Notes under the pieces: model-generated | What the model was told of the DNA's origin: nothing | Database searches by the model: none | Seen by the model: only the letters and a program-made list of their open reading frames with translations | Shown: positions 1,085-11,236 of the stretch, in pieces | Numbering within the stretch: position 1 is the first letter of the stretch | Layout of the letters: every line of letters begins with the position of its first letter | Position numbers and translations under genes: made by a program | Source: a virus | Strand: one strand, 5' to 3' | Length of the DNA: 26,957 bases | IMG/VR virus record: IMGVR_UViG_3300034061_006238 | Coordinates: 1-26,957 of that record

Positions 1085-1857
1085 GCATGGAGGTTGGGGT
1101 GTTCAAGACGAAGGTTTGCTCGAAGTGCAAGGTTGAGAAGGATGAGTGGGAGTTCCGTAAAAACCGCGGTGGATTGCGATCATGGTGCATAGACTGTGAA
1201 TCTGAACCAAGAAGAAAGGCAAGAGAAAAGAGAAAGACTGTGTTCGCAGGTGTTGACGTTTACGACGGGACTGACAGGCCTTGTGCTAAATGTAGAGAAG
1301 TGTACCCAAAAGAAAAAAGGTACTGGAAGAAGCAACCCAGTGGTTCTGGTGGTCTGAGCCCTTGGTGCCGCATGTGCGACATGCGTAACAACCTTGGTTA
1401 CAAAGACACTGGCGATCTCGCGACAGACGTTATCAGTCGGGTTCTCAGGAAGTGGAGGCATGAGCGGCGTGGCAAACGCAACAAGAAAGAAAACGCTGCA
1501 CCTTGGATCAACCACAGTGAAGCCGACTTCTTCGACATGCTGGTCCAGCAGCAAGCACGTTGCGTCGTAAGCAACGTCCCACTCACACCGGAGAACGTCT
1601 CAATCGACCACATCATACCACTGATCAAAGGAGGCACCCACGAACTGAGTAACCTTCGTCTTGTCGCATGGGACGTCAACCAAGCCATGAATTCCCTCGA
1701 CGACCATACCTTCATCGAACTCTGCCGCCAGGTCGCCAACTACCAACTTGATCTGCTGATCTACGGCAACGAAAAAGCCCCGGTGTCTGAATCTCACACC
1801 GGGGCTCATAGCGTCCCAGCCTTGGGACAGTCCCTGACCTTGGATGAACTACCCTAG
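1081..1857 (+). CDS. HNH endonuclease with two Cys-pair zinc-binding repeats
   Basis: This 258-residue protein has two N-terminal Cys repeats. The first runs from CSKC to CIDC and the second from CAKC to CRMC, each enclosing a GGL-x-W-C segment typical of small zinc-binding modules in phage HNH proteins. A basic linker (KWRHERRGKRNKK) precedes the HNH domain, where SIDHIIPLIKGG and SNLRL provide the central DH and the following Asn. HNH enzymes nick or cut DNA; in phages they act as homing nucleases or in packaging and replication. The GTG start overlaps the previous stop; ATG at 1087 is an alternative. The last 27 or so codons, after the HNH domain, carry the terminator of the opposite strand and overlap the stop of the convergent fibre gene by 9 bases, so this tail may be shaped by that signal. 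The packaging genes are far away, so a role in packaging is less likely. Confidence 0.85.
   Translation: MSMEVGVFKTKVCSKCKVEKDEWEFRKNRGGLRSWCIDCESEPRRKAREKRKTVFAGVDVYDGTDRPCAKCREVYPKEKRYWKKQPSGSGGLSPWCRMCDMRNNLGYKDTGDLATDVISRVLRKWRHERRGKRNKKENAAPWINHSEADFFDMLVQQQARCVVSNVPLTPENVSIDHIIPLIKGGTHELSNLRLVAWDVNQAMNSLDDHTFIELCRQVANYQLDLLIYGNEKAPVSESHTGAHSVPALGQSLTLDELP
1771..1806 (-). terminator. Intrinsic terminator of the late operon
   Basis: An 11-bp perfect inverted repeat (AGCCCCGGTGT at 1776-1786, its complement at 1796-1806) encloses a 9-base loop. Read on the minus strand the stem is followed directly by a run of T (1776-1772), the classic rho-independent form. It lies 43 bases beyond the stop codon of the last late gene (1849). 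On the plus strand no T-run follows, so it should act on the minus strand only. The signal lies entirely within the coding region of the convergent HNH gene. Confidence 0.9.
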
Positions 1858-3162
1858 CGGGTCGAGAATGTTCACCGGTCCACGGGCAACTGTCTTTTTT
1901 GTAGCATCTGCCCTGACCAATTCCAAGTCAAAAAATGCATCCTCACCAACGTAGTCGGCCAGCAGAGTTGTCTGTGCCTCGGTGAGCTCGACACTGACGG
2001 TCTTGCTGCTGTTGTCCAGTTCGGTTGTGGAGACATGATCAACCACCGCAACACCGGCCACGCTGACAGTGAGCTCTGCCGAATCGAACAGCGACAGGTT
2101 CGGGAACTTGGAGTCCGTGAAGGACACTGCCGTGTTGTCTGCTGCGATGTACTCATCCCCAGGCACGATGTCCAACACGTTGTTGATCATCCTGCCGCCG
2201 GCAGAGACTGCGAAATTGAATTGACCAGTGAGCACCGGCAGTCCATTGGCAGACACGATGTTCGCATCCATCTCCGAGATGGTGTAGACGATCACCGGGA
2301 TCAGTTCCACGTTTGTCGTCGTGCTCTTGCCCGAGAACACCAACTTGTCGGCATTGGTCTCTGCCTGAGTCAGTGTCCAGGTGTAGAGTCCCTTCGCGTT
2401 TGTCGCGTCTGTTTCCGCTGCCGAAGCATCTCCCAAAGCGGTAACTGCCCCATCGTCCTTCGCGATGTAAGCAGTCAGGTTCGCCGCGTCTCCGGTCTTT
2501 GGCTTGCCCGTTGCAGTGTCGATGGCAAGCATCGTGATGGATTGGCCGGCTTGATTCTTTTGCATTGTCATTACCTCAAACGAGTACCAATAAATCCACC
2601 AGTTTGCGGCACCGGTAGACTGAGTCGTTGGATTGCCAAGTTGCGGTAAACCCGCGGATACTGCAACAACACTGAAAACATGTACCTGTCCCAGCACCAG
2701 TGTTCCGCACACTGGCGAACCCGTTGCCAGTCCGCTTGGCCCCAGCACGTGATTCTGCGTCAGCGTTGTTTCGCGTACCTGCGCCTTCGCGCTGTCAAAC
2801 CCCGTCGCCGTGAGGCTGTGGTTCTGGGCGAGGCTGGTTGTCCCCACCACCGGCGAACCAGTGGCGAGACCGCTTGGCGCAAGGCTGTGATTTTGCGTTA
2901 GTGCGGTCGTGCCGCAAACTGGTGCGGTCGTCGCCAGTCCGCTGGCAGTCAGGCTGTGATTCTGCGTGAGGGCTGGCTGGCCGCAAACTGGCGTCCCCGC
3001 TGCGAGGTTGTTCGGCCCGAGGCTGTGATTCTGCGAAAGGCTTGGCTGGCCGCAAACGGGCGTCCCGGCAGCAATTCCGCTAAGGGTGAGGGAGTCGTTG
3101 CCGGCTGCCCCAGCCCCAAGCAAACCGCCAAACAGGAATGTCAGCCCTTGCAGATCAGCCAT
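1849..3162 (-). CDS. Repeat-containing tail fibre-like protein, last gene of the late operon
   Basis: This 437-residue protein has two parts. Residues about 20-180 hold seven imperfect tandem repeats of 23 residues, with a consensus like TQNHSL-x-PSGLATG-x-PVCG-x-xxL. Similar degenerate repeats occur in phage fibre or structural proteins. After a Trp/Tyr-rich stretch (WWIYWY), residues about 198-437 form a beta-rich region without recognised catalytic motifs. An internal ATG pair (2571, 2565) has a GAGG ribosome site at 2574-2577, so the second part may also be made separately. The upstream SD for the full ORF (GGAG at 3174-3177) is 11 bases from the ATG. The stop is 9 bases inside the convergent HNH gene. 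A role in host attachment is inferred from position at the end of the fibre module. Confidence 0.75.
   Translation of the reverse strand: MADLQGLTFLFGGLLGAGAAGNDSLTLSGIAAGTPVCGQPSLSQNHSLGPNNLAAGTPVCGQPALTQNHSLTASGLATTAPVCGTTALTQNHSLAPSGLATGSPVVGTTSLAQNHSLTATGFDSAKAQVRETTLTQNHVLGPSGLATGSPVCGTLVLGQVHVFSVVAVSAGLPQLGNPTTQSTGAANWWIYWYSFEVMTMQKNQAGQSITMLAIDTATGKPKTGDAANLTAYIAKDDGAVTALGDASAAETDATNAKGLYTWTLTQAETNADKLVFSGKSTTTNVELIPVIVYTISEMDANIVSANGLPVLTGQFNFAVSAGGRMINNVLDIVPGDEYIAADNTAVSFTDSKFPNLSLFDSAELTVSVAGVAVVDHVSTTELDNSSKTVSVELTEAQTTLLADYVGEDAFFDLELVRADATKKTVARGPVNILDPLG
2563..2577 (-). promoter_or_regulatory. Possible internal ribosome binding site and start inside the repeat-fibre gene
   Basis: GAGG (complement of 2574-2577) stands 8 bases before the in-frame ATG at 2565 and 2 bases before another at 2571. 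In the +1 frame the same bases read TAATG, the stop-start overlap used at several other junctions of this module. This suggests that the repeat part and the C-terminal part were once, or still are, separate translation units. Confidence 0.4.
2620..3105 (-). repeat. Seven imperfect 69-bp tandem coding repeats
   Basis: The repeat unit encodes 23 residues, with QNHSL and PVCG blocks recurring in register. Copies 2-4 and 6 are most alike; copies 1, 5 and 7 have diverged (the last has lost QNH and PVCG). The approximate limits are from the protein alignment. Such arrays can expand or contract by recombination and would change fibre length. Confidence 0.75.
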
Positions 3163-5617: not shown

Positions 5618-5986
5618 TTACTGAATGGGTTCCACTTCAAACCGTGTCAGCCCGTTCGCCTCGATTACCCGGTTGAAATGACTGAACCCATCCTCATTTT
5701 CCGATATGTCGATAATCAGGCTGGCGAGAATCGCCCCGATAACCTGCGGGTCTGCTCCCTCAATGGGCGGAAACTCGCCTTGCCCCATTCCGGCCAGCAA
5801 GTCAACGAAGCTCTGTTGAGCCTGTGTGCGGCAACCGTAGTGCGTGACTGATTGACCGTCTGCCGAGAGCGTTGCTGAGAAGTTATTCGGCCCGTGCCCC
5901 AATGCCTCGGCAACAGCGTTAGCCCCGTCGCGGGTGTACGTTGGGGCAATCATCACGATTGAATATTTCCAGTCGGTTTGGCTCAT
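5618..5986 (-). CDS. Hypothetical fibre-module protein (122 aa)
   Basis: The ATG overlaps the stop of the large upstream fibre gene (TAATG, 5988-5984), so it should be translated by coupling. The sequence has an N-terminal strand (WKYSIVMIAPTYT), a helical centre with FVDLLAGMGQGE, and a hydrophobic stretch (GAILASLIIDIS) that is too short and polar-flanked to be a clear membrane anchor. I do not recognise a family. It could be a chaperone or cap for the fibre upstream. Confidence 0.65.
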   Translation of the reverse strand: MSQTDWKYSIVMIAPTYTRDGANAVAEALGHGPNNFSATLSADGQSVTHYGCRTQAQQSFVDLLAGMGQGEFPPIEGADPQVIGAILASLIIDISENEDGFSHFNRVIEANGLTRFEVEPIQ

Positions 5987-7843: not shown

Positions 7844-8191
7844 TTAGTTGACGGGGCGAGTGATCAGGATGATCGTTCGGGCACCACCGGTCTCACTGGC
7901 AGAACTGACAATCTGCACTTGTCCGACACCACAGAAAACGTCTACGTCCAGTGGGACCCATTCATTTGCGGTGAACGAAGTCTGATAGTCCGAAGTGCTG
8001 TTCTTTTGGGCGATGATGTTTCCGCTGCCAGAGTCCAAGTATCGACCACGGTACTTGATCGAAGTACCGTTCATCGTTGCCGGGAACACCACGGCAACAA
8101 GCTGCTTACCCTTGAGATCAACCCAACCGGAGTCAGTGGTGCTGATCGCAATCGTGGCGATTTCAAAGTTTGGTTCTACGGTTTGTGACAT
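7844..8191 (-). CDS. Small structural-like protein (115 aa)
   Basis: A compact beta-rich protein of 115 residues without a signal peptide. Its ATG overlaps the stop of the trypsin-like protease gene (TAATG, 8193-8189), so the two are co-translated. It ends with GARTIILITRP and has a VDLKGKQLVAVVFPAT segment, resembling a jelly-roll or decoration-type fold, though no specific family is recognised. It marks the start of the fibre module and could be a small virion protein. A 55-base gap without a gene follows it. Confidence 0.65.
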   Translation of the reverse strand: MSQTVEPNFEIATIAISTTDSGWVDLKGKQLVAVVFPATMNGTSIKYRGRYLDSGSGNIIAQKNSTSDYQTSFTANEWVPLDVDVFCGVGQVQIVSSASETGGARTIILITRPVN

Positions 8192-9801
8192 TAGCTTTCT
8201 TCTCGCTTCTTGAGGATGTCCGCAATCATCGCTGCGAGCTCAGTCTCGCTCGGTGCCGGTGACTGCTTCTTGGCAAAGATCTCTTTGACACCGGCAAATG
8301 CCGCCTGGAAGAACCCCTTCACAGAGCGAATGACCGGCAGGAACCACAGTGGACCAAGGTTGAGCAGGAACGCTGGAACCCACCAGAGGCCAAACAGGAC
8401 CAAAGGCCAAAACATGACTTGCACCAACCAACGAACCTGGCGAATGAGAGGCAGGTTAAGCAGTCGGCCGATAATACCCGTCTCGACTTTCTCCACGCTC
8501 TCCTTGATGGAGTTCTGCAACTGCTGCCGCTGGATGTCCAACTGCTGCTCAATGGCATCCATCCGCCGGTCAAACCGCTCGCTCAGGTTCTGGAGGATGC
8601 CAGTCTGCTCGTCGTGCTTCTTCCCCAGTTGCTCGAGTAGCCCCTGCGCCTTGTCCTGGAGCTTGGGCGCAATCGGCTCAGGGAGTTCCGGCAGAATCGG
8701 AGGGAGGTTTGGGAAGATCTCTCGCTTCTGTTGTGGGAGAGTTTGAGGTTGGGGTTGGATGGGATCCTCCTGCGGCAACGGGCAACTGTCATCAGGACAG
8801 TCCTTCTGCAACTTCTTCGGGAGCGACGGGAAGATACCAATGTCCGCTGCTGCGGTTTCCCTCGAGGTAAGTTTCCCCCCGATCTTGGCGATCTCAATCG
8901 GTTTCAATTCCGGTCCACTTCGACCTTCAGCATAAGGGTCGACATACCGCAAGCTGTATCGCTCGATTTGGTCTCCCACGACGAGGAACGACTCTTCGAC
9001 TGGAGGACAGACTCCACCAGGGCATTCCTGTGTTGGGACGAGCTCGTACTTGCTGTCGTCAACTTCATCGCGGAAGTCAAACAGGCTGTAGTCCGACGAG
9101 TCCATGGCTTTGCGGATATGACTGATGGTCTGGGCGATGCCCTCACCATCGGTCTCGCTGGTGCCGTCTTTCCCCGGTGCCTTTGTGCGATATGTGATCA
9201 CTCCGACTTGGACTACCGACCCACCATCCAAGACTTGATAAACGGCACTTCCGCTTCGGCCATTGGCCGGCATCGGAACAAATCGAACTGCCTGGTTCCC
9301 CATCACACCAGTTCCGTGCCCAATCCAGTGAGTTTGCCAAGTACCCTGCGGGCAACCCGCAGAGAACAGCTTCGCGAAGTCAGGAGTAAAGTTCTGCTCT
9401 GCCAGCGGGATGGGAGAGATAACATCAAAGTAGCCCCCAAGGTCCTCCTTCTTGATGAAGACCACCGCATAGTCGTGATCGCTGCGATTGCTCAACAGCG
9501 ACTTGGTCACCACGCCTGGTACTTTGGTCGAGAGTCGACCTTGATACCAGAACTCCACCTTGACCTTGGCGTTGACCCCACCGGCAACGTGTGCGTTGGT
9601 GAGAATGTAAATGCCCTCGTCAGTCTTCGCGAAGATGCTGCCGCTGCCCAGAGACCCACCTTGGGCAAAGATGCGAACAGACGCGCCGGCGATCACCTCG
9701 AGGACCTGAGGTTCATTCGCGGTCAGAGACGACTTTGAGCAGAAGGTTGTAGAGCACAACAACAGCAGCAGAAAGCAGCAGCGTAAGAGTTTCGAGCACA
9801 T
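8191..9801 (-). CDS. Secreted, membrane-anchored trypsin-like serine protease with coiled coil
   Basis: This 536-residue protein begins with a basic n-region and a hydrophobic core (CCFLLLLLC, residues 8-16), a Sec signal. A trypsin-like domain follows with all three expected catalytic residues: His71 in TNAHV, Asp110 in DHDYAVV and Ser183 in GRSGSAV. Two CPxxxC motifs (260-265 and 335-340) come next, then a Pro/Gln-rich linker (345-380), a coiled coil (385-442) and a hydrophobic hairpin or pair of membrane helices (about 459-492) before a charged tail. The enzyme should act outside the cytoplasmic membrane while tethered to it. It lies between the integrase and the fibre module; its stop is coupled to the next gene. 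No endolysin is visible here, so a role in host envelope breakdown at lysis is possible. A lysogenic-conversion factor is the alternative. Confidence 0.85.
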   Translation of the reverse strand: MCSKLLRCCFLLLLLCSTTFCSKSSLTANEPQVLEVIAGASVRIFAQGGSLGSGSIFAKTDEGIYILTNAHVAGGVNAKVKVEFWYQGRLSTKVPGVVTKSLLSNRSDHDYAVVFIKKEDLGGYFDVISPIPLAEQNFTPDFAKLFSAGCPQGTWQTHWIGHGTGVMGNQAVRFVPMPANGRSGSAVYQVLDGGSVVQVGVITYRTKAPGKDGTSETDGEGIAQTISHIRKAMDSSDYSLFDFRDEVDDSKYELVPTQECPGGVCPPVEESFLVVGDQIERYSLRYVDPYAEGRSGPELKPIEIAKIGGKLTSRETAAADIGIFPSLPKKLQKDCPDDSCPLPQEDPIQPQPQTLPQQKREIFPNLPPILPELPEPIAPKLQDKAQGLLEQLGKKHDEQTGILQNLSERFDRRMDAIEQQLDIQRQQLQNSIKESVEKVETGIIGRLLNLPLIRQVRWLVQVMFWPLVLFGLWWVPAFLLNLGPLWFLPVIRSVKGFFQAAFAGVKEIFAKKQSPAPSETELAAMIADILKKREES

Positions 9802-9875: not shown

Positions 9876-10982
9876 TCACTTGGGAATTGAATCTTTAAAT
9901 TTCCGGCCGACTGCCAGGTCCAACTTCTCCTGAAGCGTCATTTGGTAATGCCGGCGGGAGATGTCGGGACCGTGCCCAATCCACTCGCTCTCGGCCTTTA
10001 CCCCAAACTCCTCCACCACCTCGGTGGCACGACTTCGACGGCAGTTCAGCAGCAGGTCGGGCCAAGGCTCAAGGCCGGCCCGGCGGATCGCTCGAGTCAG
10101 TCGCTTCCGGTACATCTGATCGGTCGCGGCGCAGAACCTGGGGCAAACAACGTCATCGTCAGGCATCTCAGCCAACTGCTGCCGCAGGAAAGGCTGGAGC
10201 TCGAGGAACACAGGGCAAACCCGGTACAGCTTGGTCTTGGGACTCCAGACCCGCATGGTCAGCGTGTCCCAGTCGATATCGCACCAGCGGAGACTCCTGA
10301 CCTCCGAGCCCACGCGGAAACCGGCCCAGCGAGCCAGCGCGAACACAAGCTTGTCCTCGGTGTCACCAAGGCACCGGAGGACATCGGCAGTGGCCTCTGG
10401 CGTGACGTAGAATCGACGACCTTGGTCAATTGGGACTTTGACCCGAATGCCGACGAACGGATTGCGAGCGAGCCATTCTCGAGCCACAGCGTAGCCGAAG
10501 ACCTGCCGGCTGTGTTTGATGCGTTTGGCGACCGATGCCGGCGAGTACTCCTGCCGCTCCAGGTGCCGGCGGAACTCCTCGCAGTCGCCCTGTGTGATGG
10601 TCGCAAGCTGGCGGGTAGAGGAGAAGAAATCACGCAGCGACTTGTGGTACTGTTTATGGTTGACCTTGGTCCTTGGGGCAAGATCCTCACCAAGGCGCTC
10701 GGCCAAGGCGATCAGGTCCTCGAGGGTGCCGCCCGCATGCCCCAGATTCACCAGGCCTGACTCGGCCAGTAGATGCTTGGTGCTTGGCGCGAGGGAGAGG
10801 ACCCAGTCCAGCAGGTCACCAGTCAGGGGCAAACCTGACCTTCGCAAATGCTCGAGCCGAGACAGAAATCCGCGAACGGTCTCTGCCTCGGCCCGAGTGC
10901 ATTTCAGAGTGAGCGAGTGGACTTTGGTGCCCCTGAACTGAAGTCGAAAGACCCGTTTCCCTCTCGCTGTTAGCTGTGCCAT
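9876..10982 (-). CDS. int: Tyrosine recombinase (phage integrase), planctomycete type
   Basis: This protein of about 368 residues has an N-terminal arm, a core-binding SAM-like domain (about 88-180) and a C-terminal catalytic domain. Numbered from an upstream GTG at 10985, the catalytic residues are Arg224 (GFRVGSEV), a Lys at 250 or 252 (SPKTK), an N-x-x-R element in NCRR (Asn314, Arg317), His338 in GHG and the nucleophile Tyr347 in RRHYQ. The usual HxxR box is therefore NxxR, as I associate with recombinases from planctomycetes. I prefer the ATG at 10982, which forms a TGATG overlap with the stop of the HTH gene upstream. It should integrate and excise the phage genome. Its place inside the tail-gene series, on the same strand, is unusual. 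Confidence 0.9.
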   Translation of the reverse strand: MAQLTARGKRVFRLQFRGTKVHSLTLKCTRAEAETVRGFLSRLEHLRRSGLPLTGDLLDWVLSLAPSTKHLLAESGLVNLGHAGGTLEDLIALAERLGEDLAPRTKVNHKQYHKSLRDFFSSTRQLATITQGDCEEFRRHLERQEYSPASVAKRIKHSRQVFGYAVAREWLARNPFVGIRVKVPIDQGRRFYVTPEATADVLRCLGDTEDKLVFALARWAGFRVGSEVRSLRWCDIDWDTLTMRVWSPKTKLYRVCPVFLELQPFLRQQLAEMPDDDVVCPRFCAATDQMYRKRLTRAIRRAGLEPWPDLLLNCRRSRATEVVEEFGVKAESEWIGHGPDISRRHYQMTLQEKLDLAVGRKFKDSIPK

Positions 10983-11236
10983 CACTTCACCAGAAGTTCG
11001 ACCTCCCAGCGACTGACTCGCACTCGCTTGCCCACATGCCGCTTCTGGAGTTTGCCCTCCTCAATGTAGCGTTCCACCGTTCTGATCGAAACGCCCAGCA
11101 TGGTCGCAGCATCGCGCTTGCTGATGAATTCCGGTCGCCCGGCGGGTGGGGCCCCCTGTGCGGGGGGTTGAATCTGTGACAGCATTGGAAACAATTGATT
11201 TAATGCATTGATCGCATTGATCAGATCCAAAGTCAT
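10982..11236 (-). CDS. Small helix-turn-helix protein, probable excisionase (recombination directionality factor)
   Basis: This 84-residue protein has a Pro-rich linker at about 23-34. A winged or MerR-like helix-turn-helix follows (FISKRDAATMLGVS, then RTVERYIEEG, then KRVRVSRWEVELL), the form used by excisionases and other small DNA-bending proteins. It is coupled to the integrase gene by TGATG, the usual arrangement for a directionality factor. A GGAG ribosome site lies about 10 bases before the ATG. The upstream gap contains a 12-bp inverted repeat that could be its operator or a leader structure. An alternative is a small transcription regulator. Confidence 0.75.
   Translation of the reverse strand: MTLDLINAINALNQLFPMLSQIQPPAQGAPPAGRPEFISKRDAATMLGVSIRTVERYIEEGKLQKRHVGKRVRVSRWEVELLVK

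Follow-up and report, generated by a model that had tools for sequence, protein, structure and literature searches.

A predicted exported and membrane-tethered chymotrypsin-fold serine protease in the late region of a probable planctomycete phage

The protease gene and its setting

The window, that is, the entire stretch of 26,957 nucleotides analyzed here, is a 27-kb virus record and represents a fragment; its left end runs into a primase-like gene, and thus the early region is absent. Genes for the tape measure, major tail, and major head proteins and for the terminase were recognized by PHROGs, and an integrase by both Pfam and PHROGs, which bears out the phage late region that an earlier note on this DNA had described. 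The protease gene sits inside this siphophage late operon. The ORF and its translation, the existence of relatives, and purifying selection define it as an ATG-initiated gene on the minus strand (8191-9801) for a predicted exported, membrane-tethered chymotrypsin-fold serine protease of 536 amino acids. Directly upstream lies the gene of a tyrosine integrase (9876-10985, minus strand; Pfam and PHROGs), and an excisionase-like protein is also encoded on this side. The adjacency of integrase and protease is common to the window and its nearest relative, L002, but absent in L003. On the other side follows a gene for a protein of 115 amino acids (7844-8191, minus strand), whose ATG overlaps the protease stop codon at a CTAATG junction. 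This overlap (TAATG) makes translational coupling probable. A homolog of the 115-aa gene with 63% identity is found in L003 near the protease, after a metallophosphoesterase-like gene, and another with 23% identity in L016 immediately after the protease. A further candidate for a conserved neighbor, at 5618-5986, proved unsupported in L003. At the protease gene, no promoter or terminator signal clearly exceeded chance. The putative late protein encoded at 1849-3162 of the window (minus strand) carries degenerate TPVCGQPSLSQNHSL-like repeats near its N-terminus.

Sequence, AlphaFold model, and hydropathy agree on all the parts that had been read from the letters: a signal peptide, a catalytic triad, two CPxxxC motifs, a coiled coil, and a membrane hairpin (all coordinates refer to the minus strand). 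The signal peptide comprises about residues 1-22 (MCSKLLRCCFLLLLLCSTTFCS; 9736-9801), with a hydrophobic h-region after basic residues; it has neither a clean AxA cleavage site nor a lipobox (STTFC), and in a simple scan it was the sole sense-strand signal-peptide candidate in the window. The protease domain (residues 30-240; 9082-9714), delimited by the AlphaFold model, PDB matches, and Trypsin_2, contains the catalytic residues His71 (TNAH; 9589-9591), Asp110 (9472-9474), and Ser183 (GRSGS; 9253-9255). This triad is invariant in all 26 diverse proteins aligned, from which the doubtful member L032 was left out. Further downstream are the motifs CPGGVC (residues 260-265; 9007-9024) and CPDDSC (residues 335-340; 8782-8799), a coiled-coil helix in the AlphaFold model (residues 381-441; 8479-8661), and the C-terminal membrane hairpin (residues 451-511; 8269-8451). 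Hydropathy and the model both indicate a helix pair here, formed by residues 451-481 and 483-511. Over the whole protein, the hydropathy profile marks two hydrophobic regions, one N-terminal and the other C-terminal.

Fold, relatives, and a secreted partner gene

The AlphaFold model has a chymotrypsin fold, and most of residues 30-205 reach pLDDT values of about 70-96; confidence is lower at about residues 205-220, poor in the linker, and fair in the C-terminal helices. Re-alignment with PDB chains gave Z scores of at least 8 for 998 of 998 chains, and the list is led by MarP (best Z, 20.6), effectively tied with HtrA-type enzymes (Z about 20). The predicted double beta-barrel fold together with the His-Asp-Ser triad places the enzyme in family S1 of the PA clan. 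Against Trypsin_2 (PF13365; gathering cut-off 27.6 bits) the window copy scores 23 bits, whereas four of five relatives tested pass (L011, 52.1; L014, 34.2; L026, 33.3; L017, 30.6 bits) and L031 falls just short with 27.3 bits. No PDZ domain was matched downstream of the protease domain (Pfam, E 0.1), the NCBIfam HtrA models reached 13.8-14.5 bits versus cut-offs of 416-650, and neither Pfam, PHROGs, nor NCBIfam detected a peptidoglycan hydrolase domain in the protein. Matches in a viral structure library were distant RNA-virus proteases, alike in fold only. By its modeled fold the enzyme ranks among the chymotrypsin-like proteases, and it is not classed as an HtrA, a MarP, or an endolysin. 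The earlier label "trypsin-like" fits the fold and the intact triad but not trypsin specificity, because the S1-pocket residue six positions before the catalytic serine is Met177 (M, N, I, E, A, P, V, or D among the relatives) and the cleavage preference should therefore differ from that of trypsin.

The earlier note had advised looking for the gene in related prophages, and about 25 relatives were found in viral contigs and planctomycete genomes. Two of them are close, with 86 and 58% identity, and the other two dozen or so are distant; this rules out a lone curiosity. Most loci place the protease amid genes for terminase, portal, capsid, connector, head, tail, or fiber proteins. Together the relatives form a whole undescribed family, encoded within the structural gene regions of many related viruses; no published description of this protein was found among open-licence papers. 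All three genome matches outside viral contigs belong to Planctomycetota, in support of the host group proposed before; the window virus probably infects planctomycete bacteria. Within this phylum, a survey at E 1e-20 detected the protease in at least 1 of 294 genomes, a lower bound because at most five candidates per genome were scored, and this rarity points to a phage rather than a host function. Together with the phage genes around most readable loci, it rules out that the contig captured a host gene. Searches of 50,697 GenBank phage records, in which planctomycete phages are poorly represented, yielded no relative with P0001 or two other subfamilies as queries, and none was found on GenBank plasmids with P0001 as query. 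Contigs retrieved via capsid and terminase in a hunt for protease-free close relatives were short. In many of the prophages, the prohead protease and the major capsid protein apparently form one ORF of about 700 amino acids, as read from sequence (L004:6968-9010, L018:1852-3987). One end of the SV_7m_r prophage (L072:2346-8243) carries glycosyltransferase, sulfotransferase, and radical-SAM genes, which perhaps serve surface or virion modification.

The dN/dS ratio between the window and L002 is 0.083, indicating strong purifying selection, and the ORF is therefore not a chance product; between the window and L003, synonymous sites are saturated. Amino acid identity with L003 amounts to 73% in the protease domain and 72% in the hairpin (residues 448-511), as compared to 49% in the linker, 40% in the coiled coil (residues 376-447), 31% in the signal, and 16% in the tail. 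Conservation of the hairpin to the same degree as the catalytic domain suggests that it is more than a loose anchor. Export features vary in the family. Several relatives have clear AxA cleavage sites (SAEAQ in L017, SADAQ in L019), L003 carries a VSGC lipobox, and six relatives lack a signal peptide. A CPxGxCP-type motif occurs in most exported relatives (for example, L014:6723-9032 and L017:7447-8490), in proline-rich parts at differing positions before or after the protease domain. As a host-wide motif it had 2-7 matches per genome versus 0-4 in the control, several of them in host proteins.

The C-terminal membrane segment and a second gene are distributed in a complementary manner. None of the 11 proteases that have such a segment according to hydropathy is accompanied by this partner gene, but 12 of the 15 that lack the segment are directly preceded by it (Fisher p 5e-5, with phages treated as independent; L014 counted as segment-less at the threshold used, although a shorter hydrophobic stretch is present). 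The partner is a small signal-peptide protein, predicted to be secreted, with a hydrophobic C-terminal helix and a mostly helical fold that has no significant match in the PDB. Partner genes lie at L031:9256-9852 and L017:6999-7397, and equivalents were found in L006, L016, L018, L019, L023, L024, L027, L029, L033, and L034. They fall into two groups, which are probably homologous according to profile alignment (hhalign E 2.9e-6, probability 88). Six of these phages combine a partner that has a signal peptide with a protease that has none. The complementarity suggests that membrane association is contributed either by the protease itself or by its neighbor, and the pattern points to the partner as a second gene of interest.

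Host envelope and virus exit

As had been remarked earlier, no endolysin or holin family is recognizable in the 27-kb fragment. Beyond the window, the relative G002 (L009 plus L003; 35,397 bases) is probably a complete genome, because 11 identical bases occur at both of its ends. Pfam identified a polymerase, helicase, primase, nuclease, ssDNA-binding protein, metallophosphatase, and tail proteins in G002, but no peptidoglycan hydrolase, holin, or spanin among the non-structural and tail proteins scanned. The clearest exported protein of G002 in a simple signal-peptide scan is the protease. Between its tail and integrase genes, the opposite strand carries a small lipoprotein-like ORF (MKTAILTALALLLCLGC...; L009:14552-14872, minus strand). 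Amidase_2, SLT, and M15_3, the three families searched in 20 viral records, were absent from all of them. A missing endolysin match is weak evidence, however, because Pfam and PHROGs cover planctomycete phage proteins poorly. The phage of L014 contains a weak candidate lysis pair: a candidate cysteine peptidase (L048:18187-19103, minus strand; weak match to 3kw0, E 0.015) adjoins a small protein with a single membrane segment. The same phage encodes a second secreted trypsin-fold protein (L048:10919-11872, minus strand; Trypsin_2, E 2.6e-10).

The suggestion that the protease is the lysis enzyme had started from the premise that planctomycete envelopes are rich in protein. This premise is out of date, because planctomycetes have peptidoglycan and respond to lysozyme with shape loss or lysis (PMC4432640). 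A protease alone would thus be a poor substitute for an endolysin, and another enzyme would still be needed. On the other hand, one planctomycete phage was reported to exit without lysis (PMC10945688), so that a classical cassette is perhaps not required; no description of the exit mode of tailed planctomycete phages was found in open-licence papers. A lysis role of the protease is possible. It agrees with export, tethering, and the lack of a recognizable endolysin, but sits uneasily with the peptidoglycan wall and with the six signal-less relatives, which could attack the envelope directly from beyond the membrane only if a partner lets them out.

We tentatively propose, with somewhat less than even confidence, that a late, membrane-tethered, HtrA/MarP-like periplasmic protease cuts host envelope proteins at virus exit. 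After export, the enzyme would stay on the periplasmic face of the inner membrane, anchored by the C-terminal hairpin on a stalk of coiled coil and proline-rich sequence. In a manner comparable to HtrA and MarP, it would cut selected host envelope proteins instead of digesting the wall wholesale. Cleavage may remove proteins that link the outer membrane and the wall, or it may activate the host's own peptidoglycan hydrolases. With the latter option, for which MarP sets a precedent by acting through a peptidoglycan hydrolase, a protease would be compatible with a wall of peptidoglycan. In either case, the envelope would be prepared for virus exit. We infer that the protease domain resides outside the cytoplasm, is proteolytically active, and is made late, whereas its substrate and its role in exit are conjectural. 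Late co-expression is likely because of the structural-gene setting in most relatives and the stop/start overlap with the 115-aa gene. In many phages, however, the protease gene is flanked by head genes on one side and tail genes on the other, which is not a usual lysis position.

The main alternative, which appears rather unlikely, is that the protease trims proteins on the host surface, among them the phage receptor; released virions would then not stick to debris, and the cell would resist superinfection. Alteration of the lysogen's surface had already been considered in the earlier note. The integrase adjoins the protease in the window and L002, which is a usual site of lysogen-altering genes, although this adjacency is lost in L003. 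In both the window and L016, a member of the 115-aa gene family comes directly after the protease, and large presumed fiber or lectin-like genes follow in the window, L003, and L016, but most relatives lack the fiber neighborhood. The glycosyltransferase and sulfotransferase genes of the SV_7m_r prophage would also be in line with surface remodeling. An inner-membrane-anchored protease would hardly reach outer-surface receptors, however, and the conserved place in structural operons argues for late expression. Many copies are located between the major capsid and tail genes, and the six relatives without signal peptide could act in the cytoplasm; hence the protease might cut a fiber, connector, or decoration protein during virion assembly or maturation, with tethering being secondary. 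This is improbable, because most copies have clear export signals, some with AxA sites, that would draw the enzyme away from assembling virions, and several of these phages apparently possess a separate, capsid-fused prohead protease. Still less probable is a general periplasmic quality-control or stress protease that helps the cell to survive lysogeny or the overproduction of phage proteins, which would suit the HtrA-like fold but is at odds with the undetected PDZ domain, the HtrA-like proteins (weaker matches) of the host genomes themselves, and the strong retention in structural operons that suggests a phage-specific task.

If the proposed envelope processing at exit extends to the family, many planctomycete phages may leave their hosts by means of a tethered protease, or a protease plus a small secreted and membrane-active partner, that opens the envelope instead of the usual endolysin cassette, perhaps through activation of host wall hydrolases. 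We regard this extension as unlikely. Nevertheless, the conservation of this predicted exported protease in late operons makes it a concrete candidate for a step in virus exit or exclusion.

Comparison with known systems

The closest structural counterpart, MarP (Rv3671c) of Mycobacterium tuberculosis (3k6z; Z 20.6, rmsd 2.2 over 172 residues, 17% identity), is membrane-anchored and cleaves the peptidoglycan hydrolase RipA with its periplasmic protease domain (PMC6628586). The window protease would share the inner-membrane tether and the location of the domain outside the cytoplasm. However, MarP is anchored by four membrane helices at its N-terminus, whereas the window protease has an N-terminal signal and, in addition, a C-terminal hairpin, a coiled coil, and a CPxxxC stalk. 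HtrA/Deg proteases (DegS, DegP, HtrA1) have the same type of catalytic domain and triad (Z about 20) but differ in the PDZ domain, which was not detected in the window protease, and the scores against the NCBIfam HtrA models are far below cut-off. Glutamyl endopeptidases (S1B) provide the best sequence-profile matches in the PDB (E 2e-6, alignment A3), but these enzymes are secreted, soluble, and devoid of a membrane tail.

Among phage lysis proteins, endolysins with a Sec signal or SAR tether occur in exported, tethered, and signal-less forms. The same three forms are found in the protease family, but the window protein is a protease and has no peptidoglycan-degrading domain. Unimolecular spanins connect an exported N-terminus to a C-terminal membrane segment via a long linker and coiled coil. 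The window protease likewise has an N-terminus predicted to be exported, a C-terminal membrane segment, a linker, and a coiled coil; it differs from spanins by its enzyme domain and by the lipobox, which is absent from the window copy but present in L003 (VSGC).
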